Origin: Corallium rubrum
Lineage: Eukaryota; Cnidaria; Anthozoa; Scleralcyonacea; Coralliidae
Assembly (NCBI GenBank): GCA_964035015.1
Contig: OZ036017.1
Location: 6,224,080 to 6,288,079 of the forward strand
DNA: 64,000 nt
Reading direction: 5' to 3'
The notes beneath the pieces were generated by a model that saw nothing but the letters and a program-made list of their open reading frames with translations, had not been told where the DNA came from and searched no databases. Of this stretch, positions 3,892 to 63,826 are shown in pieces. How positions within the stretch are numbered: the first letter of the stretch is position 1; each line of letters starts with the position of its first letter. The translations under genes were made by a program, and so were the position numbers.

Positions 3892-4136
3892 TCAGGGTGT
3901 TGCGCGCGCATCATTTTTCAAAAAAAACTGGCAAGCTCCACTCAAAGTAAATATACTAAAATAGGCAAAGTATAGATACAGTTTCTGGATATTTTATAAC
4001 ACTGTTATTCTGCTGTTGTTGGATCGCTAGCAAGTATGTTTGCCGTTGCTTATTTTGTGGGGAGCTCGCCAAGAGCCTGCCAATTCCTTTGCAAAATGAT
4101 GCGCGCAATACCCTGAAATTCGCATATACGGTGGAT
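3892..4136. mobile_element. MITE inserted between RNase H and integrase regions
   Basis: Arms of about 60 bases are inverted copies: both start near GGCGAGTTTCAGGGT or its variant and continue TTGCGCGC..ATCATTTT. The element is about 245 bp and its insertion removes continuity of the retrotransposon reading region. No open frame. No clean target duplication seen. Confidence 0.6.
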
Positions 4137-4718
4137 GCCTATCTCACCAGAGACGTTAGGGGTCGGCGTGGTCGTATCTTGTCGGGTCTGAACTTCTTGT
4201 ATTGGCTGAGGAGAGTGGGTCAGTAAAGCTGTAGTCGGAGTCCAGACGGGCCATTGTTTGTTAGATGACGTAAGCCATGATGGTCCGTTGCGCCACAGTG
4301 TCGATGATTGCATCTGAGAAGTTGTAGCACTGCGTGTTAATACGTCAGCTGGATTGTCGTTTGTAGGGCAGTAGTGCCAGCAGTTGAGAGGAAACAGTGC
4401 CTTGATGGGTTGAATGCGGTTAGCAACAAGTTGTTTGAGTTCTTTGTTACTGTAGATCCAGTGTAAGACGATCTGACTGTCAGACCAGAGGTGTACTTCC
4501 AAATCTTCATAGCGGGTCTTGATTGCGTTGTGAATGAATGAAGCTAGTCTGGCACGTACTACAGCTGCCATTAGCTCCAGTTGAGGTAGCGTCAACTTTT
4601 TGAGAGGGGCGACTCGTGTTTTCGCCATGACACGTGATGTTTGATCTCTTTGAGGTACGTTACTGCGCCGTATGCCTTTGTACTTGCATCCACAAAAATA
4701 TGGAGTTGTGATGCGCAC
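4050..4718 (-). pseudogene. BEL/Pao RNase H region
   Basis: The 222-codon frame contains RVAPLKKLTLPQLELMAAV and VHLWSDSQIVLHWI, the strongly conserved RNase H stretches of Pao-type Pol, then NRIQPIKAL and NPADVLTR. The last 30 or so codons run into the inserted MITE and are not retrotransposon sequence. Confidence 0.85.
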
Positions 4719-4804
4719 TGGGGTGATAAGGAAGTGTCAAAATAATGTCTTGGAATCACAGTGTCTCGTGCGGTCTGTAGATCATATGCAGTCTTAAGCC
4801 AATC

Positions 4805-5460
4805 TTGTTACAGCTGTCCGTCGAGTGGTTCCCAATCCATAGATTTTTGCCACAGTAGTTGCATGAACATCTTAGCTCGCACGGTTATGGGAGTGATCAT
4901 GCCGAATGGATCAAAGATACTTGAAGATTGTTGTAGGATTTTGCGTTTAGTGATATCGGTTTCTTGTTGGCTAAGGAAAGAGTATCGGTCGAGATGTTCC
5001 AATTGAGGCCAAGGACGTTGATTTCAGTGCTAGGGTCAGCAGTTTGTTCTTCAGATGTCTTGTGTTGTAGTGCAGTACTGTTTGACGCCCAAGAGCGGAG
5101 GTTGAAATTGGCTTGATTCATAATGGATCTGGCTTCGTCGTAGTACTCGATTGCGGCTAGTTCTGTATCAGAACCAGAAACGATATTATCGACATACATG
5201 TTCTCCTTCATGTTACGAGAAACAGATGATGTAAACGTGCTCATTTAACATAAACGGCGAACTCGTAGCACCAAACGGAACGGCTTTGAAGCGGTATGTA
5301 TCAAAGGAGCTATCTGGGTCGTGAGGATTTGAAAGCCACAAGAATCTAATAAAGTCCCTGTCACATTCAGCAAGATTGAGATGGAAAAAGGCTTTTTCAA
5401 TATCTGTTGTTATGCCGTAGGTGTAGGAACGAAAGCGAAGTAGAACAGCCGTCATGTCGT
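4805..5460 (-). pseudogene. BEL/Pao reverse transcriptase fragments
   Basis: Frames at 5213-5455 and 4897-5244 give DIEKAFFHLNLAECDRDF, RFLWL, VPFGATSSPFML and then MYVDNIVSG. The last matches the YVDD polymerase box with the second Asp changed to Asn. A frameshift separates the two pieces, and a third piece at 4808-5002 carries SSIFDPFGMITPITVRAK, typical of the segment after the palm. The enzyme is dead by frame and by the altered box. Confidence 0.85.
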
Positions 5461-5599
5461 TAAGTAATGGTGTGCCAGCTCTGAGGCAGTCGTTGAGACT
5501 TGCAGATGTTGGTGACTGACGACAGCTACAATCATAGACTATTCTGATGGGAGTCGTTGCCGAATCCTTTCTTACCGGGTGGTGGGGGATGTAATGAGC

Positions 5600-6640
5600 G
5601 TTGTTGGTCGACGCGGTGTTCGGTATCTTCTCAATAAATCCTCTTTCTTCTTGTTCTGCGATTATTGTTCCAAGGTGTGTAACAAGGCAGGTGTCCGATT
5701 CAATTGTTGAATTGTCGATCTGGTACGTTTCTCACAGATGGAAAGGTTCGACGGCAGAGGTGGGTGATCTTCTTTCCATGGAAACTTGGCAGTGTGTACC
5801 ATCTTTCTCGCGTGAGATGGAGGAGTTTTGATACTCACAGGAAAAGCTGTTTTCAACATCGTTATGCGCTTGGTGGAATGATGCCTTGAGATTCCAAGGA
5901 CCAGAATCGTTCCAGTTGACTGTCTTCGTCATGGTGGGAAATAATGATGTTGTACATATTGGTCGAGGTTCCTTCACCAGGTAGAGTCAATTGGTCCAGA
6001 TAACAGGTACCCTAACTTTGATTGCATTGCTGTTGGGCCATTTCCGCGGATGATGTGGTCCTGGACTATATGCCAATAATGATCTGCTCCGATTAACAGG
6101 GAAATCTCGAAATATCCATCATCTGTGACTGGATGGGCAAGCTTGAGCCCTTTCAGATAAGGAATATCCTTGAGAGACGTTCTAACTTGATTCTGTAGTG
6201 GAGTACAGTAGCGATGTTATATAGGTACAATGAGGACTTGGATTGGAATTTGTCCAAAGGTTTCTGTTTCGATGTTGATTGTTGCAACATCCAGGTTTCT
6301 CTTTAGTGTAGTACTAGCTCCAAATGTGGAAAGGCTAATGGTTTCACTTGTAACAGCATGCAAACCAACTTTTCTAGCGAGGGACTGTGTAATAAGATGA
6401 ATGGTTTTGCTTGCAGTAAACACACAAAGGTAGGTCGTTTTGGACGTGGCGGTGGCGGACGATGTGTGCCTTCAGCACCGGTGTAAAAGGATGAGGTAAT
6501 GGTTGATGATGTTTGCTTGTGTCCCCTACCATGCGAATTGACGAACTCTCCTGCTTCTAAAATCTTCAGTTCCTTACGTATGGCATTTCGCACTTCATCA
6601 ATCGTCCATTCTAAGGACCCATGTTCTCGTGCCATGTTCT
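5600..6640 (-). pseudogene. BEL/Pao gag C-terminus and protease-like region
   Basis: The piece starting at 6635 contains HGSLEWTIDEVRNAI, the usual Pao gag linker before a zinc-knuckle region. The piece at 6217-6423 has ITQSLARKVGL and IPIQVLIVP, fitting the aspartic-protease-like domain (DUF1758). Pieces between 5660 and 5977 cover the region before the polymerase. All are separated by stops or shifts. Confidence 0.7.
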
Positions 6641-20544: not shown

Positions 20545-21503
20545 CGAAAATGAACGCGTCACCCGGTTCCCGTGTCATCATGGGATAATAATCCCGCGTT
20601 AGCCTCGCGTGGTCTTAAGGTAGCACAAAACGTTTATGCAAATTCGCACATAGTCACTCGAAAGTCGAAAGCCATACATTGCATGAGTTTTACAAATTAA
20701 TATTTCTACTTTTTCATTCAACTTTATGGGCTAGTATAGTTAGGTCATTTGACAAGTTTTGTGTCTAATCAAATAGTGTGTAGCATGCTGCACTAAATAA
20801 CTGTTAGCAGAGGAATTTTGAAGATATGAAAGGTATATAGTTAAAGTTTGGTGGAAATATTGGTGAAACACTTATAAACAAAATATGACAAATGGTAAAC
20901 TTGGAAAAGCATTTGAAGCTCAATGTTATAACTTATAGAGATGAATAAAAAATCGAATAGAATATTCTAGTGGCACATATATGCATGCATGTGCTAGAAA
21001 ATATTTTTATTGAGAGAAACTGGGTTTTTTTGTTTTAAGAAAATGAAAAATGTTCGGCATGTTCTAAGAAAATATATTTCTTATTGTAAAAAAATGGTTT
21101 TCTCATTTTAAGATAATATTTTCTTGTTTTGAGAAAATGAAAAATGTTGAACATATGCTTGAAAATATTTCTCATTTTAAGAAACTGGTTTTCTCATTCG
21201 TATAAAATATTTTCTTGTTTTAAGATACTAGTAAATCTCGATCCTTGCAAAAAACTTTTTTCTCATTTTAAGAATTTTTTTTTCTTACTAAGAAAATAAT
21301 TTTCTTATTTTAAGAATGTTTTTTCTTACTAGGAAAATGGTGAAAATGATTTTCTTATTTTAAGAATTTTTTTTCTTACTGAGAAAATGATTTTCTTATT
21401 TTAAGAATTTATTTCTTTCTAAGAAAATTATTTTCTTGTTTTAAGAAAAATTTTCTTAAAATAAGAAAAAAAATTCTTAATAAGAAAATCATTTTTTGCT
21501 GTG

Positions 21504-26149: not shown

Positions 26150-26272
26150 TATGTATGTATGTATGTATGTATGTATGTATGTACGTACGTATGTATGTAT
26201 GTATGTATGTATGTATGTATGTATGTATGTATGTATGTATGTATGTATGTATGTATGTATGTATGTGTGTGT

Positions 26273-26356
<84 letters not shown>
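26149..26356 (+). repeat. (TATG)n then (TG)n microsatellite
   Basis: About 28 TATG units with two ACGT interruptions, followed by about 45 TG units. Apparent open frames of Tyr-Val-Cys or Thr-His repeats here come from the repeat. Confidence 0.98.
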
Positions 26357-26360
<4 letters not shown>

Positions 26361-26733
26361 ATGTTTTCGTCAATCACGTGATCAAGCCAAAAAGTTAATA
26401 GGCACACTTCAGAAGTCTTACTCGTATGTCCGAAGGGTTTCCAAACGTGTACCAAAACAACCAATGGGAGATTGGAAGTCGAGCTTCGCTTCAGGTTGTG
26501 GATAATTGCACGCAATCACAAGACGCCAAGAAATCCACGAGCTGACAGTGGTCTACTGGTCTGTCAATATAAAGTTTAATATTTTGTGAACATTTGCGAA
26601 TCAGTGACTGGTTTCTAAAGCATATACCTACATATAGACCAACAGTATATATTGCAGCATTTAGGTTTTTAACGTGTTCACCGTTATTTTTTTCTAAAGC
26701 AGTAAAGCAAGCGCGCGGTCAATGCTGATTTAA

Positions 26734-26867
26734 CATACATACATACATACATACATACATACATACATACATACATACATACATACATACATACATACAT
26801 ACATACATACATACATACATACATACATACATACATACATACATACATACATACATACATACATACA

Positions 26868-26896
<29 letters not shown>
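26734..26896 (+). repeat. (CATA)n microsatellite
   Basis: About 40 perfect CATA units. Confidence 0.98.
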
Positions 26897-26900
<4 letters not shown>

Positions 26901-27425: not shown

Positions 27426-27446
27426 TAAATATATATATATATATAT
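27426..27446 (+). repeat. (TA)n microsatellite
   Basis: Ten TA units; the left border of an inserted block that ends at another (TA)n run (27910-27931). Confidence 0.9.
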
Positions 27447-27448
27447 AA

Positions 27449-27909
27449 CAATCGAAATATGGTATAGTAGGTTAGTACTGCCGAAACAGAGAACGTGAGT
27501 GGTCTAACGTTTCGAGCGAAGGCCCTTCGTCAGAGAGAAACGTAAAGAGTAAAACAAACAACGAGCTTATATACGCGAGATAATCACTTGATAAAAATTA
27601 GCCAATCGGATAAAGGTAACCAAGACAAACTAATAATGAGATTCAAAAGAATAAGCCAATCAGGGCAAAGTAACAATAACAAATAAATAATGAGATGCGA
27701 AAGCCATTTGCTATTCTCACCATCGATAAGTAAAAAAAGGAGAGTAAAAAATAGAGAGTAAAGAATGGAGAAGTAAGTGAAAACACTGTTTATGTCTGCC
27801 CTTGCTAATACAAAAACAGCATCTTCAGAAGTGTTAAATAAAAGAAAAACGTTCATTGAGTCCATGAGGATGAATGGTTCCAATTTTGAAAATGAGACGC
27901 TTTTCCTGT
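27449..27909 (-). mobile_element. Dispersed repeat fragment bounded by (TA)n
   Basis: On the minus strand this contains CTGACGAAGGGCCTTCGCTC followed by GAAACGTTAG, a stretch I associate with abundant cnidarian repeats. A related AGTACTGCCGAAA stretch lies at 41037-41050. The 134-codon minus frame through it is AT-rich and has no domain. The class is uncertain; a Penelope-like or retrozyme-associated tail is possible. Confidence 0.35.
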
Positions 27910-27932
27910 CGTATATATATATATATATATAG

Positions 27933-27974
27933 CTACACTGATGAGCTGTAGTACAGCGAAACACGTGCCTGTAG
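27933..27974 (+). ncRNA. Hammerhead ribozyme motif 1, probably inactive
   Basis: Order of parts: CTACA (stem I 5'), CTGATGA, stem II GCTGT-AGT-ACAGC, GAAA, short stem III CACGTG region, and TGTAG (stem I 3'). All core bases are present. The triplet before the cleavage point is GCC (27967-27969) rather than GUC as in motif 2, which breaks the NUH rule, so self-cleavage here is expected to be lost or weak. Confidence 0.8.
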
Positions 27975-28207
27975 ATTGAACTATGCACGCTCCTTCACTT
28001 CGGTGTTGTTGAGCACTCTGTGAAGTTGCCGTGCGTACCTATTAGCGATATGCAACGCTCACTACCCTCGTGGAAGTTTGAGCACTCTGGGCCCATGCGC
28101 ACTTCACGCTATCTGATTGTACTTCACCAATGCTGTCCCACATGCGGTTGTCACCGACGATCGCATGTGTATAAGTAATTGATGAAATTCATTCAGATTG
28201 TTCCAAG

Positions 28208-28249
28208 CTACACTGATGAGCTGTAGTACAGCGAAACACGTGTCTGTAG
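28208..28249 (+). ncRNA. Hammerhead ribozyme motif 2, predicted active
   Basis: CTACA (28208-28212) pairs with TGTAG (28245-28249) as stem I. CTGATGA (28213-28219) and GAAA (28233-28236) are the conserved core, and GCTGT/ACAGC with an AGT loop is stem II. CACGTGTC gives a very short stem III ending in GTC, so cleavage is predicted after 28244. CAA and TTG outside stem I can pair further past a G/A bulge. Minimal stem III hammerheads of this kind usually work as dimers in retroelement transcripts. Confidence 0.85.
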
Positions 28250-28255
28250 ATTGAA

Positions 28256-28350
28256 CTATATATATATATATATATGTATATAACTATATATATATAACTA
28301 TATATATATATATAACTATATATAACTATATATATATATATAACTATATA

Positions 28351-28421
<71 letters not shown>

Positions 28422-28424
28422 AAC
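28256..28424 (+). repeat. TA-rich low-complexity run
   Basis: (TA)n mixed with TATAACTATA units; the right border of the retrozyme-like unit. Confidence 0.95.
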
Positions 28425-29141
28425 TCATCGTGCACATGTGACGTCAAATGTTTAATTTACATGTCATACAACCTGAAATATCTCAACAACGAAGCAAGAA
28501 AACGAAAAACTGCAAGCTATGTTACTCGGCAGTCATTTTATACGTGCTCAGTATTTCAAGTAAGACAGACTTAATGTTTGTTTTATAGCACTTTACATAT
28601 AATTTGAAACAACTCTTGAAATTATAAATACTGTGTTACGTGGCCGCTATACGCAACAAAAGTATAACCTCAGCTGTTTGGTTTTTACAATTATTTATTT
28701 AATTAACAAGAAACTTAGAACAGATATTGAAAATGTATATAAAGATTAAAACTAAACTAAAGTTCAGAAACTTATCTGTCGTCTGCGCACAACGAAACAG
28801 TCAATAAGAGATTCCGGCAACAGGTTAACAATCCGTATGGACTTGAAAAGGAAGGAATAATAAAACCAACGGCAGGAACTCCAGGACTGACTTCGTAACC
28901 ACTTTGATACATATAGCTCACTCTTATACATATGCATGCCTGAGAAATGTTCGACGGCTGCTTATATAGTTTCTAGAGTATATAATTATAGTAACATACT
29001 TCATTCTATATATATAATATATTTACGTAATTACTAAATGACATCATAGCTGACTCATGCTAAGTCACAAGTATGTACTAATTGATCACAAGTACTTCTT
29101 AAGTGTTCAGTGATCAAATAACGTCTAGTTAATTAACTGTC
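28425..29141. other. Non-coding stretch
   Basis: AT-rich, no domain, splice pattern or repeat recognised. Confidence 0.5.
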
Positions 29142-31030: not shown

Positions 31031-32163
31031 TTACTTCTTAAGTGATTGTGGCAAAATACATTTAGTTTGATTATTTTTTAAAATGGCCCGTCCATTATTG
31101 TCATCACCTAGTGATATCTTCGAAATTGCGCCATGAAACGTCGAAACAGTTGTAAAAAGTCGAAAGTCTGATTGCTGAAGGAGAAAGAAATCAAGAAACA
31201 TGGACAAGTGTCCGATGTCTTCGTTCCCCTTTTTCGGATTTCCAATGTGCTCAATTGGACCATACAATGTTTTGATTTTATCGGGATGCTTTTTGCTAGC
31301 GTAGTTCCTAATTTCCTCAGTATCTGTGGCAAAAAACCAAATAACCTTTTTTGTTTTATACATTTCCTGTATACGTTTGTCTATTTCTTCGGCACAACGA
31401 AAAAAATGATCGGTGTCTTCAAATTTAGCAACCCTTACGTCTCTGCCGTTGTGAAGATCCACCACATCGCCTCGCCGAATGTGGATTCCCAAGACGATAT
31501 GTTTATCGAATCCCAGTTGGAGTTTTACCTGCGTAAGGCGATTTTCCAAGTACGACGATCTTTTAAATAAATAATGAAAACTGCAGCCGAAATATAAGAA
31601 CTTCTGAGGCCATGCAGGTAGATTGTATTTGAAATGTTTTTGCAAATAGAATGGGTCATTCTGCCTCCTGATGGCTTCGATGGAGTTGTTGAAGTATTCT
31701 TCAAAATCCGTATTTAAAAGTCCCTTTGGAAACGGACGATGAAATGGAGTTTGGAACCTAACCGATAGTCCAGTGGTATTTATTTGATAGTTCCATTTGA
31801 TGAAATTTGGTTCCAAATACTTTACAAGAGGGCTTGGTTTCGGGCAGTCAATGATGAAGGCTCTTTTGGATATCACAGCTAAAAAAAAAGAACTTAATAG
31901 TCCGCGAACGCGATTTCCCCAACCAGTATGATCACATATGTATAGCAAGAATCGTTTTGACTTAAGCGCGTTTTCGTGAAGCTTTTGGTAGTTAATCTGC
32001 CACGGTCCACGACAAGTTTCGTTGTACTTTTTGTCAAGGTTCGGTGGTTCTTTTGGCCTCGCCATCATTTTTTCGGTATTGTCGGCACTGACATGGTCTT
32101 TTGTCGTATAGTTCTTGCTGTTGGCTCTAGCATTTAAGAAGTTTCCGCGAGACAAAAGAACGT
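31031..32163 (-). CDS. Fucosyltransferase-fold type II membrane glycosyltransferase, exon 2
   Basis: This 1133-base exon carries the catalytic domain of a predicted 410-aa Golgi enzyme. Visible motifs in spliced numbering are GWGNRVRGLL (about 114-123), typical of the N-terminal part of GT-B fucosyltransferases, and HIRRGD (261-266), the donor-binding motif of GT11/GT23/GT37-type enzymes. WFFATDTEE and a C-terminal HGAISKISLG follow. Several N-glycosylation sequons fit a lumenal domain. Acceptor TTTCTACTGTTTATAG lies at 32164 onward; phase 1 fits exon 1 at 34235-34334. The domain is full length and uninterrupted. The substrate cannot be deduced; transfer of fucose from GDP-fucose is inferred from family motifs. 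Confidence 0.85.
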
Positions 32164-34234
32164 CTATAAACAGTAGAAAAAAGTGACTAATGACGTTAAG
32201 ACTTTTATTGATTTTAACAGTGTATGCGTTGTGATTGCAGCTGCGAGTTTGCAGTAGCCCGAGTGAACGCCTGACCAGGCGTCTTGTTCACAATATGGAC
32301 CTGTTCGCATGATACGAGTCATCTCGGTGCATGAGATACCCGGATGTTAGTTTGTCACATGCATGTTTAAGTAAAGGTTAATCGTTTATCACAAGAGTGA
32401 ACATTGTGTAATCTCATGACTCTTCTTCAAGGAAATATTTTTTTATTTAAAGAAGTGTTTTGAACCTGAAGTAGGTAAAGTTTTTTTTGATTTGTTTTTA
32501 CTTTACCAGCTGTCGTAAGTTAAACTCAGAGGTTAAGTTCCGGCCTGTGTAACAGGGCCAGATGCCCCCCCCCCCCCCCTTCAGAATGCCCCCAGGGCAT
32601 CTGGTACTAGGACCAGATGCCCCCCTCAGCAGCAGAGCCCCACTTGTGAGATCCTTTAAAATACTTCTTAAATAAAGTTCGAAATGTATTGAAACTTGTT
32701 TCGAAACTAACAAATGTCTCCCAAACGTACACCATGGAAATGTTAATCGCGGTCGGCAATGATTAATGGTTGTTTTTCTATTTTTGAAACAGTGATTCGG
32801 AGAATATTCCGTGCCGAAATAGTGCCTTTTTCACAGTATTCCAGATCCGAAAACCAAGGTCTAATTCAATGCTTCGAAATATCAGCTCAACGACGTTACA
32901 ATCAATAATACACGAAACTTGAACTCTGCACCCAGTGCCCCCCCCCCCCCCCCCCAGTTCCGCGGCCTCTGCACAACGAAGGTTTGTAGGTTTGTTCATG
33001 AAGACATAATGAACGAGTTGCACAAAGATATGTCACATATGTTGAACTGCTCGGAACTGTTTGCATGTCGAGTACGAAAGCCCAACAGCCTCGTTGGCCG
33101 TTGCAAGCGATTTCAGATCCACCAAACCGTGGTGGTTGTGTCAATGAATAACAGACGCAGTGATCTCCTAGAGCTCTAAAATCCAAATCTGAAAACTGTT
33201 TCAGCAATTCTCCATAATATTATGAAGATACGAGAAAACACAGAAGGTTTGTTCATGAAGACAGAATGAACGAGTTATATACAGCACACATGGCTTCGTG
33301 AAGACGCTTTCGTGGCAAGTTGTATGAATATTTGAAATGATTAATACAATAAAATTGACATAAATAACGAATATAGAAAATCCATCCCACTTTGCCGAGT
33401 TAACAGGAGAAAAGTGTTTTTATGGAGAAATATTTATATTGCTCTGCCGAGATCCCGGCTGCCTGTGCGGAGTTCTCGCCAGGGCGAGTTTATACTCGTC
33501 TGTCTCATAAAACTGCGGTGGGAAAACAGTGTTTGCTCCATCGACCGGGACCTCGCCATGTGCCCAGTAACTTCACAGGAAATTTCCCCTTCCCCCGAAA
33601 ATTTGTCCTCCCGGACTACATTTCCTAAGAAATTTGTCGCCCTTGGGATATATTTCCTATAAAAAATTTGTTCCCCTCTTTGGAAGTTTGTCCCCCCATA
33701 ACAACATGCTTTACTTTACCTTATAACGTACTATACGCTCAGAAACCAAGAAGCTATTTCTGAAACCAAATTTCTAAAACTTTCAGTATTACCCACTATA
33801 CATTATAAATAATACTTGGTTTCTCGGTTTCTGAGCATACGGCATATACAGTATGCATAATTAGGAATACCAAAGTGTTAACAAAGCAAAATCCTTCATC
33901 TTTAATATTATGTTTCCCTCTCAAAGATAACCTGCACTTTGTATTCTAATCCAGTTCTAAATACTGACAGTATTTAGAAAGTAGTAAGTAGAAGATAAAA
34001 TTAAAGCGTGTTCTTGAGGAGGACAAATCTCCGAAGAGTGGGACATTTGAAATTTCTGAAGAGTGGGACATAATTCCTAGAAAATTTGTCCCCCTGGAGG
34101 GACATATTCCTTAGGAAATTTCGCCTGGGGGAACCAATTTTTTTTGGGGGGGGAGGGGCGGGGGGACACAAATTTCCTGTGACACCTGCAACTCGTCTCC
34201 ATATAAACTGACCCTTATTAGAGATAGGATTTAC
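32164..34234 (-). other. Intron 1 of the fucosyltransferase-like gene
   Basis: 2.07 kb with a canonical GTAAAT donor and TATAG acceptor. It contains a CCAGATGCCCCC hairpin (32557-32632), C-runs at 32565 and 32938, a stretch at 32340-32420 related to 34880-34980, and an inverted-repeat block at about 33565-34190. Confidence 0.7.
33565..34190. mobile_element. Degenerate inverted-repeat element in intron
   Basis: CACAGGAAATTT at about 33571 has its complement at about 34170, and between them AAATTTGTCCCC or GGGGACAAATTT units recur many times in both orientations. It looks like an old foldback element rich in C/G runs. Ends are uncertain. Confidence 0.45.
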
Positions 34235-44450: not shown

Positions 44451-45976
44451 CAGGGGCGGATCTAGGAAAATATTTGACTGTTGCACGCATGGTGTGGTTC
44501 ACTCCATCAAGGGGGGTACGGGGGCATGCCCCCCCCGGAAAATTTTGAAAATTAGGACGTCTAAAAACGCATTTCCCGCATTCTGAGAGCAAGTGAAAGC
44601 CATCTTGGAAGACCGTTTTGTATATATTTAAGATAACGTATTGTAATTAGATACACAATTAAACATAAATACAACCGAGAAGCGCTTAGTAATACTATAC
44701 TGTACAAAGCATAAACGAGAGAAAGAGACTAGTCTAAACTCAAAATGTATTTAATATGGAAAGTGACTGTCAGACTTGACTCACTGACTGCAGTAAATAT
44801 TGAAACCGAACAGCGGAGAGCTGACTCCCATGAAACACTGAGTGAGGACTCATTAGCATACAGTATAATATAATATTAAAAGTGTGACGATTCCCGTGGC
44901 AAGGCAGCACTTCCCTTGCGATAGTAACTCCTAGTTTATAGAATATTATTCATAAGCTAAGCTGCTAAGGCTTACCTCACTGGGTAGTGATTCGAGGCGC
45001 GCGATTCCTGCACAAAGTACAGCGTAGATCTTCACCAAGATTCTTTCCGCATCCTTTTGAAATATTACGCTCGCACTCGCGCTTGAGAGCGATAAGTTTA
45101 CAGTCTGTCTCCTCTCGAGAATAACCTCCATCAATATATTCAACAGCGGTTGTAACACGTATATACATCGTTAGAAGCCATTTATTCTTGAAAGAAGCCG
45201 AGTAGGTCGAATGAAGCGTACTCAATAACATCATCTGAGAAGCGAAACAGATTTCGCAATCTGTTGCAACTGTTGCACAGTCTATTGTTTTGATTGGACA
45301 GCTACCCCTAGCTGTTGCACAAATGCTAAATATAGCCGGTTTCACGGACTATATTTAGCTCAACTGTTGCACAAACGACTTCAGACTGATCCGGTGCAAC
45401 AGCGGACCAGGCCTGTTGCACAAGGATGTTGCACAAGGAGATGGGGGGGGGGGGGAAAGAAGCCGAGTAGGTCGAATGAAGCGTACTCAATAACATCATC
45501 TGAGAAGCGAAACAGATTTCGCAATCTGTTGCAACTGTTGCACAGTCTATTGTTTTGATTGGACAGCTACCCCTAGCTGTTGCACAAATGCTAAATATAG
45601 CCTGTTTCACGGACTATATTTAGCTCAACTGTTGCACAAACGACTTCAGACTGATCCGGTGCAACAGCGGACCAGGCCTGTTGCACAAGGATGTTGCACA
45701 AGGAGATGGGGGGGGGGGGGGGGGGGGGTTCGGCCGGAAATATTGTATATTGCGGGTTTTCTGGGTGATGACAATCTCACCCAATTGCGGGTTAGAATTT
45801 TCCCGGATTTTGCTCGAAGCGAAGACTGGAGGGCCGAGGCTGTGCTTTCGAGTTATAAACCGTTAGGTAATTTTGCAAATTGAATTATTCTTATTATATT
45901 TTAATGTCGTTTTCGTTTTTCTGGACATTTTGACTGTTGCATTTGCAACAGTTGCAACAGTCTAGATCCGCCCCTG
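44451..45976. mobile_element. hAT-like element, 1.53 kb, 5-bp target duplication
   Basis: Ends are CAGGGGCGGATCTAG and its exact complement (45962-45976), with GACTGTTGCA further in. TGGGT flanks both sides (44446-44450 and 45977-45981). CAGNGGCGGAT termini and a 5-bp duplication agree with the 688-bp element at 51301. The interior has a GCATGCCCC.CCGGAAAATTTT module at about 44520 and a 265-bp tandem duplication. No transposase, so non-autonomous. Confidence 0.7.
45190..45720 (+). repeat. 265-bp direct tandem duplication
   Basis: The copies at 45190-45454 and 45455-45719 are almost identical (one G/T difference noted at GCCGGTTT/GCCTGTTT plus G-run length). Each contains several CTGTTGCACAA units and a hairpin with arms GCTAAATATAG and CTATATTTAGC. 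Each ends in a G-run, which may have mediated the duplication. Confidence 0.9.
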
Positions 45977-62369: not shown

Positions 62370-62895
62370 GGCCAGCGGTTTGAGCAAAACAAACATGGCC
62401 GCCGGAACCTTTAGGAGTGACGATCAGAAGTGAATTAATCGGCCGGATTTGGCAAGTTTTGTTGACACCAAAACCAAAAAGAAAAACCAAGCGAGCTACA
62501 CATATACAGCTGTTAGAGTTTAAAGCAGTATTTGAAAGAGAAAAAATAAAAATATTTCTCAAGGAAATATGGTTTTTTATGTCAAGCCTGAATTATAGCG
62601 ATAAGCTAAAAGTAGGAAATAGTTAAATTGGATTGTGGTAGATCAAGGCGGGGCTTGGCGGAGAAGGAAATTCTACCGACTTCGCCTACGTAAGAGGCAT
62701 AAAGTCAAGGCCAAATTTTAGCTATTTGAAGCAAGGCTAATTATCCGCTTCCACAATTCAACCTTTCTCGCGATCGAGTGAAGACATACGAATTTTCCAT
62801 TGACGTTGTTGGACTTCGTTTCTTTTACCTTTATTCAGGTGAGATCTTAAATTGATATTCTTTATATAATTTTATATAAATATAATTTGGGTATT

Positions 62896-63444
62896 ATGGA
62901 ATTGTCGCGCCCAAAAGTTCTTGTTTTTGGACACTCGTTTGTCAAACGTCTCCACCGCGATTTGCGCTCTAACTTCGACGTTCGTGCGGTCCTAAATTTT
63001 AAAATACAAAGAGCGTCAATCAAATTGCATGGAATTGGGGGAGGCACAGTAGACAAATTGATCGCGTTCGATTTAGATAAAGTTAGTTCATTTCGACCAA
63101 CTGTTGTAATTTTAGAAATTGGGACTAACGACCTTAGCCATAGCAAACCCGAAGTAGTGGGTTCCAAAATCGATGAACTAGTTCATCTTTTACTCCAGCT
63201 CCCTTATGTTCGGATGATAGGGGTTTGCCTCATTACAAGTCGGGCAGCATCCCCGGAGTTCAACCGGCAGGCGTTAATTTTGAACCAATATTTAGTGGTC
63301 GTACTGGACAAGGGTTTCTTACAGCGCGTAAAATCTCCGTTTTTACCAGACGGTGTTCATTTTAATCGTAGAGCGCACTACACACTGTATCGCAGTTATC
63401 GCGGTGCTATTCTAAAGGCTTTAGCAAGCCTCCCTAGTTGTTAG
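62896..63444 (+). CDS. SGNH-hydrolase-like protein, probably retroelement-linked
   Basis: 182 codons from ATG at 62896. KVLVFGHSFVKRL is block I with the nucleophile Ser14, HGIGGGT fits the block II Gly, VVILEIGTNDLS is block III (GxND), and LPDGVHFN is block V with the Asp-x-x-His pair. All four SGNH (GDSL-type esterase) signatures are present, so the fold is intact. Small stand-alone SGNH proteins like this are frequent in cnidarian genomes, often next to tyrosine-recombinase retroelements; that link is recalled knowledge. A CAG/GTGAGA donor-like site at about 62838 may end a 5' untranslated exon. A minisatellite follows the stop. Confidence 0.75.
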   Translation: MELSRPKVLVFGHSFVKRLHRDLRSNFDVRAVLNFKIQRASIKLHGIGGGTVDKLIAFDLDKVSSFRPTVVILEIGTNDLSHSKPEVVGSKIDELVHLLLQLPYVRMIGVCLITSRAASPEFNRQALILNQYLVVVLDKGFLQRVKSPFLPDGVHFNRRAHYTLYRSYRGAILKALASLPSC

Positions 63445-63640: not shown

Positions 63641-63826
63641 GTTTGTGATGGCTACGTCCTCACACTTGTTAGTTTGTGATGGCTACGTCCTCACACTTGT
63701 TAGTTTGTGATGGCTACGTCCTCACACTTGTTAGTTTGTGATGGCTACGTCCTCACACTTGTTAGTTTGTGATGGCTACGTCCTCACACTTGTTAGTTTG
63801 TGATGGCTACGTCCTCACACTTGTTA
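63641..63826 (+). repeat. 31-bp minisatellite, six perfect units
   Basis: The unit runs GTTTGTGATGGCTACGTCCT then CACACTTGTTA. Units start at 63641, 63672, 63703, 63734, 63765 and 63796. A further core GAGGCTACGTCCTC follows at 63831. It lies about 200 bases after the SGNH stop and may be in its 3' untranslated region. Confidence 0.97.

Follow-up and report, generated by a model that had tools for sequence, protein, structure and literature searches.

Two hammerhead motifs lie in direct orientation between TA microsatellites in the window analysed here, a 64,000-nt stretch of Corallium rubrum DNA (all coordinates are positions within it), and they raise the question of what kind of element carries them and by what route it came to lie in TA-repeat DNA. 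The insert occupies 27931..28259 on the plus strand and is 1.19 units long. It contains a 54-nt hammerhead unit twice (27931-27984 and 28206-28259; spacing 275 nt; identity 53/54), and the 37-nt core of this unit was found at 2 positions, with up to three mismatches permitted, versus zero in 100 shuffles. The motif comprises stem I (CTACA/TGTAG), CTGATGA, stem II (GCTGT-AGT-ACAGC), GAAA and the very short stem III (C-ACGT-G) that had been pointed out in the initial annotation. On its 5' side the insert meets a (TA)n tract at 27912..27931, which also borders the 5' edge of a Penelope-like remnant and is thus common to both elements, and on its 3' side it is flanked by (TA)n with GTATATAAC interruptions (28257..28417). 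The 3' end of the insert (28245..28259, plus strand) reads ATTGAAC, followed by a TAT common to the target, and is the putative start point of reverse transcription.

Both motifs keep the core at a spacing of exactly 275 bases, as had been described, but they are not equally complete, and the notion that they are equivalent was rejected. The second (28201..28255, plus strand) is a complete type I hammerhead with upper stem I TTC/GAA, a stem III palindrome (ACACGTGT) and a predicted cut at 28244/28245. Its core is whole, 15/15 pairs of the drawn structure are formed, and it represents the commonest form in its family (61/106 copies identical; 40 loci, up to three substitutions). The single base separating the two units is position 16.1, within GTGTC in the second and GTGCC in the first (27931..27984, plus strand), where U16.1 is lost and the cleavage triplet is changed from GUC to GCC. 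The first ribozyme, although its core is present, also lacks upper stem I, because (TA)n occupies the upstream position. Under the NUH rule, a change from GUC to GCC cripples hammerhead cleavage. The GCC triplet is found in 1/106 family ribozymes, and one other (L035) carries G at position 16.1. Judged from these letters, the window copy is probably impaired, and its transcripts should be cleaved at 28244/28245 and hardly at 27969/27970. The 275-nt monomer (27970-28244) originally proposed as a product of this copy is therefore doubtful, since the upstream triplet is GCC rather than GUC and upper stem I is missing; with its first ribozyme damaged, the copy should be a poor monomer maker.

In cleavage register the unit spans 27970..28244 (plus strand) and is a predicted circle of 275 nt, the window copy having a 1-nt deletion relative to the usual family unit of 276 nt. 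Folded as a circle, it has a predicted energy of -86.3 kcal/mol, which is 3.8 sd below 200 dinucleotide shuffles, 0/200 of which were as stable. Its G+C content is 0.476, no open reading frame of at least 160 aa overlaps it, and inspection revealed no LTR at the unit.

Elsewhere in the window, several other repeats and frames were recorded. An AT-rich array at 21025-21495 contains inverted units (TTTTCTTA...TAAGAAAA), a 265-bp unit stands twice at 45190-45720 with 99% identity (a recent duplication), and a perfect sixfold repeat of a 31-bp unit (63641-63826) lies at the right window edge, beside a GDSL-lipase-like frame (62851-63444). Pieces of a BEL/Pao-type retrotransposon were found at 4050-5731 (minus strand), with a Peptidase_A17 match and an RVT_1 match below the cut-off. 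A single-exon frame of 418 aa at 31031-32287 (minus strand) has a sub-threshold match to alpha-1,6-fucosyltransferase and 16 relatives in a protein search.

The initial annotation had held that the lack of a hammerhead model hit above threshold would speak against its reading, and no such hit was obtained from Rfam. Across the whole window, 0/4227 families reached the gathering score, and the best hammerhead match in 27800-28500 at a loose threshold was HH9 (23.3 bits versus a cut-off of 52; E 0.0029). We do not take this as a refutation, because 61/106 ribozyme copies across the 40 loci are identical and a sister family has a compensatory change. In the sister family, composed of 188-nt units (L025), one A-U pair of the window's stem I is replaced by G-C; this covariation is weak alone, since it consists of a single pair with both bases altered, seen in two rows from one locus, and is equalled by 155/500 shuffles. 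The underlying alignment consisted of 12 ribozymes chosen from 35 distinct forms, all with helices unbroken, and its 100% paired cells are consequently uninformative. A family covariance model, searched against the window and 15/40 loci, matched only these two ribozymes in the window.

In isolation, the ribozyme has a minimum-energy fold other than the hammerhead (-10.4 versus -5.8 kcal/mol for the hammerhead), which agrees with a reading in which it acts as a dimer. Stem III is ACGUACGU in the 188-nt family versus ACACGUGU in the window; four letters differ, and both are perfect 8-nt palindromes. Because the innermost stem III pair is impossible within one short hairpin and the palindrome is kept in two families, the sequences hint that two ribozymes may be joined through stem III, that is, as dimeric hammerheads. 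Against the dimer reading, three copies in L028 and one copy each in L007, L018 and L039 have an interrupted palindrome.

Further genomic copies, which had been suggested as a check, were sought in 474,352,983 bases on 312 contigs, and a dispersed family was found. A 20-nt motif from the 3' side of the ribozyme has 463 exact occurrences genome-wide and the 21-base ribozyme-to-(TA)n junction has 342, the reversed pattern occurring 0 times in each case. A 326-base query returned 753 candidates, and the 40 best-scored of these (100 matches) constitute the sample of loci referred to throughout, which is biased to long, recent copies. Units of ~276 nt are arranged head to tail. The 64 monomers in cleavage register include 42 of 276 nt, and their divergence from the majority sequence is low (median 1.8%, range 0 to 8%), indicating a recent spread of the family. 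Unit number ranges from 1.16 to 9.93 (L014) among the 40 longest inserts, and inserts of ~50 nt are also present (L007, L022). Contig C1 carries 78 separate TA-ended clusters, and few ends on this contig have an intact second motif upstream, so that a layout with two ribozymes, as in the window, is in the minority; L005 is one insert in which both ribozymes carry GUC. The sister family was found at L025:1495-2257 (C1, ~87547794-87548556) as 188-nt units that lie in (TA)n and carry four ribozymes, the loop of stem III being GUAC; this array is followed by an insert from the 276-nt family within one TA tract, namely the 3' tract of the 188-nt array. With its type I hammerheads, unit size and G+C below 50%, the dispersed family resembles metazoan retrozymes (PMC7229834). 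The retrozyme call was right, and the locus is a new member of the metazoan retrozyme kind already known.

Insert ends were then placed on the circle, with positions numbered from the first base 3' of the ribozyme cut. The 3' end falls at or about circle position 10-15 (ATTGAAC, then TA) in 40/40 loci. A point change halts exact matching at 1-3 in L016, L038 and L040, where the aligned 3' end is unmoved, and L002 is a rearranged array with the standard 3' end in its last segment. Of 48 aligned segments, 6 have a different end point, namely three 14-nt pieces belonging to the 188-nt family and segments of L002 (end at 82), L003 (at 255) and L007 (at 238). The 5' ends, by contrast with this fixed terminus, are scattered over circle positions 13 to 270, with none at 147-204 in the sample. 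A tract of (TA)6 or more is present no further than 20 nt from the 3' end in 38/40 loci and from the 5' end in 36/40. Outside the locus, such tracts account for 58 of the window's remaining 63,459 bases, and in distal flanks for 839/72,000 bases (1.2%).

A less biased sample of ends was drawn from the 463 motifs by taking the first 100, which all lie on contig C1. Of these, 57 run directly into TATATATATA, 18 are followed by a further copy at a distance of 150-420 nt and 25 fell into neither class. When 21 of these 25 were re-read, 5 proved internal to the element (L069, L075, L081, L085, L087), 6 have a TA tract that is short or imperfect (L070, L071, L074, L083, L084, L086) and 10 lie outside TA (L072, L073, L076, L077, L078, L079, L080, L082, L088, L109), L073 being in (TC)n and one flank being common to L078, L079 and L082. 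The remaining 4 comprise L031 and L034 in TA, L022 in (CTAT)n and L040, which is internal. Altogether, 65/76 C1 termini stand in TA and 11/76 outside it, which bears out the suggestion that the element inserts into TA microsatellites. At the 5' joint, microhomology of at least 1 nt was present in 19/27 cases (47% expected, p 0.012) and of at least 2 nt in 10/27 (17% expected, p 0.011).

The fixed 3' end, the scattered 5' ends, the fractional unit numbers running through the cut site and the microhomology together fit target-primed reverse transcription round a circle. We consider it probable that the window holds a non-coding, non-autonomous copy of the retrozyme kind, derived from a hammerhead-cut circle by TA-primed reverse transcription, with a Penelope-like element as the likeliest source of the enzyme. 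Weighing against this account are the sub-threshold Rfam scores, the non-hammerhead fold of the lone ribozyme, the 11/76 C1 termini outside TA and the gap in 5' ends at circle positions 147-204. Transcripts of tandem copies would be cut by their hammerheads, probably as dimers via the stem III palindrome, and the cut monomers would be ligated into circles. A retroelement protein would nick a TA repeat, and the freed ...ATA-3' end could pair with the UAU beside GAAC of the circle. Reverse transcription would start at GAAC/UAU and run ~0.2 to 10 turns round the circle, after which the cDNA would be joined to TA on the other side. A start just past the ribozyme would leave an insert that ends in a whole ribozyme.

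The Penelope-like remnant that meets the TA tract where the retrozyme starts occupies 27448..27911 (minus strand). It is a 5'-truncated element consisting of its last codons (frame RQEKRLIFKIGTIHPHGLNERFSFI, then stop) and a 3' untranslated part, with its 3' end in (TA)n (27429..27447). A minimal hammerhead-like core (CTGACGA...CGAAA, then CGTT) without stem III was recognised by inspection at 27510..27533 (minus strand), and the C-terminus of 24 residues has 87.5% identity to the C-termini of other copies. Pfam searches of Penelope-like pieces gave GIY-YIG only (E 0.0096) and no RT hit, and comparison of a Penelope-like piece with solved structures gave 0 matches. The Penelope-like label is one that we take from a GIY-YIG-like YIGETGRRLGDRF stretch, the minimal hammerhead and inverted tail copies, all read by eye. 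With an RT-endonuclease C-terminus, a minimal hammerhead and 5' truncation, the remnant at 27448-27911 is, as far as its sequence can be read, a Penelope-like element. (TATG)n and (ACAT)n arrays lie close to it (26150-26357 and 26733-26897).

The family of this remnant yielded 2572 candidates, and scoring of 40 of these gave 39 other full-length matches of the 3' part, 97-98% identical. A second Penelope-like family, encountered in L015, yielded 5763 candidates and 122 scored matches, with several open frames of at least 914 aa. Penelope-like pieces occur in 8/40 retrozyme loci, the window counted, and one tract is common to both elements in 4/40 (the window, L007, L015 and L024, the last with imperfect TA). 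Penelope-like elements would be the likeliest helper because they are abundant, have long open frames and minimal hammerheads, terminate tens of nt beyond these, and have TA tracts in common with the retrozyme.

The share of ends in TA differs between the two kinds of element, and this is the argument for another mover, a retroelement with a strict TA-repeat endonuclease that is not Penelope-like. Ends in (TA)6 or longer were seen in 5/20 cases for the window Penelope-like family (L089, L098, L101, L106, L108) and in 4/20 query-matched ends for the second family (L054, L056, L058, L067), both samples being biased towards TA by queries that ended in TA letters and four of the second family's 20 ends being one repeated composite. 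The same composite of Penelope-like tails, joined tail-to-tail and apparently a repeat in its own right, was observed in L049, L052, L053 and L055. Penelope-like elements thus lie at AT-rich sites and at times in TA tracts, and the retrozyme, with 65/76 termini in TA, is far stricter, so the habit of the helper alone does not explain the target. Nevertheless, no TA-strict element was met within the loci examined, and pairing of a TA primer with the retrozyme UAU could lend apparent strictness to a loose AT-rich cutter; we regard a mover of another kind as doubtful. Such pairing of RNA with a TA primer would explain the stricter targeting of the retrozyme. Tentatively, and with rather less than even confidence, we suggest that the retrozyme RNA itself selects the target: copying could begin solely at a nicked TA repeat paired to the UAU beside the ribozyme, which would give TA-repeat specificity, turn a loose AT-rich Penelope-like cutter into a TA-repeat-specific inserter and regenerate a whole ribozyme.

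The template could instead be a linear multimeric read-through transcript, with the hammerheads only trimming the RNA or being incidental to insertion. The observed junctions are equally compatible with a linear multimer, and in vitro the Penelope-like protein of an anole inserts hammerhead-mutated RNA, initiating inside the RNA (PMC11167929). Two indirect points weigh against this template: most inserts seem to exceed or fall short of a whole number of units while keeping a single fixed start, as expected from a circle, and published metazoan retrozymes accumulate circles (PMC7229834). We judge the linear template unlikely and retain the circle.

It is more improbable still that the TA tracts were produced by insertion, through slippage of reverse transcriptase on UAU, and were not a chosen target. 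The UAU at the start point could serve as template, and LINE ends often carry 3' microsatellite tails (PMC8969392), but TA stands on the 5' side too (36/40 loci) and the window tract also borders the Penelope-like remnant, on which grounds slippage as the only source of the tracts was rejected. Amplification as a conventional satellite, through unequal crossing-over and without passing through RNA, might be suggested by arrays of up to 9.93 units (L014), but it is scarcely credible for 78 separate TA-ended clusters on C1 alone with one fixed 3' end and scattered 5' ends, and was likewise rejected.

Metazoan non-LTR retrozymes are described as non-coding tandem units of ~170-400 nt with type I hammerheads and G+C below 50% (Cervera and de la Pena 2020, PMC7229834). 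Penelope-like elements co-exist with them and are named as the likely helper (PMC7229834), while the route of animal retrozymes back into DNA and the source of the enzyme are left open (PMC7229834, PMC7761336). A partial literature search (mostly titles and abstracts) found neither TA-repeat targeting nor a fixed start described for retrozymes, also not in passages of papers that mention both retrozymes and microsatellites, and we claim no novelty in print. The junction footprint obtained here, with a single start point, unconstrained 5' ends, a predominant target and TA tracts common with Penelope-like elements, makes the circle-template and Penelope-helper models testable, and it illustrates that TA microsatellites can gather nested retroelements.

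Compared with published metazoan retrozymes, the coral family is alike in type I hammerhead, unit size, dispersed tandem copies, G+C, lack of coding capacity and predicted compact circle (PMC7229834). It differs in having 65/76 ends in (TA)n and a 3' end fixed past the ribozyme; the main text of PMC7229834 does not use the word 'microsatellite' and mentions target duplications where they occur. Most invertebrate retrozyme ribozymes act as monomers according to the same source, whereas the stem III seen here resembles that of amphibian ribozymes in its weakness. Hammerhead repeats of the amphibian satellite 2 type share a one- to two-pair stem III, a palindromic tetraloop and expected dimers, but their units are 330-350 bp and found in salamanders (PMC7229834), and the likeness is drawn from their description. 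Nematostella retrozyme-like repeats are likewise invertebrate type I hammerhead repeats, flanked by 15-bp target duplications (PMC4918200) where none is recognisable in (TA)n. The carnation small viroid-like RNA, related to retrozymes by PMC9695139, has DNA copies reported in microsatellite-like genome sequence, but it belongs to a plant and is tied to a pararetrovirus, and is again likened by description. Penelope-like elements are alike in having a hammerhead, tandem or truncated copies, a start inside the RNA past the hammerhead and AT-rich sites; they encode RT and a GIY-YIG endonuclease, whereas the retrozyme is non-coding and has a fuller ribozyme (PMC11167929, PMC7761336). The start of the anole Penelope-like element is unpaired with the cut DNA (PMC11167929), whereas for the retrozyme described here a 3-nt UAU match is possible.
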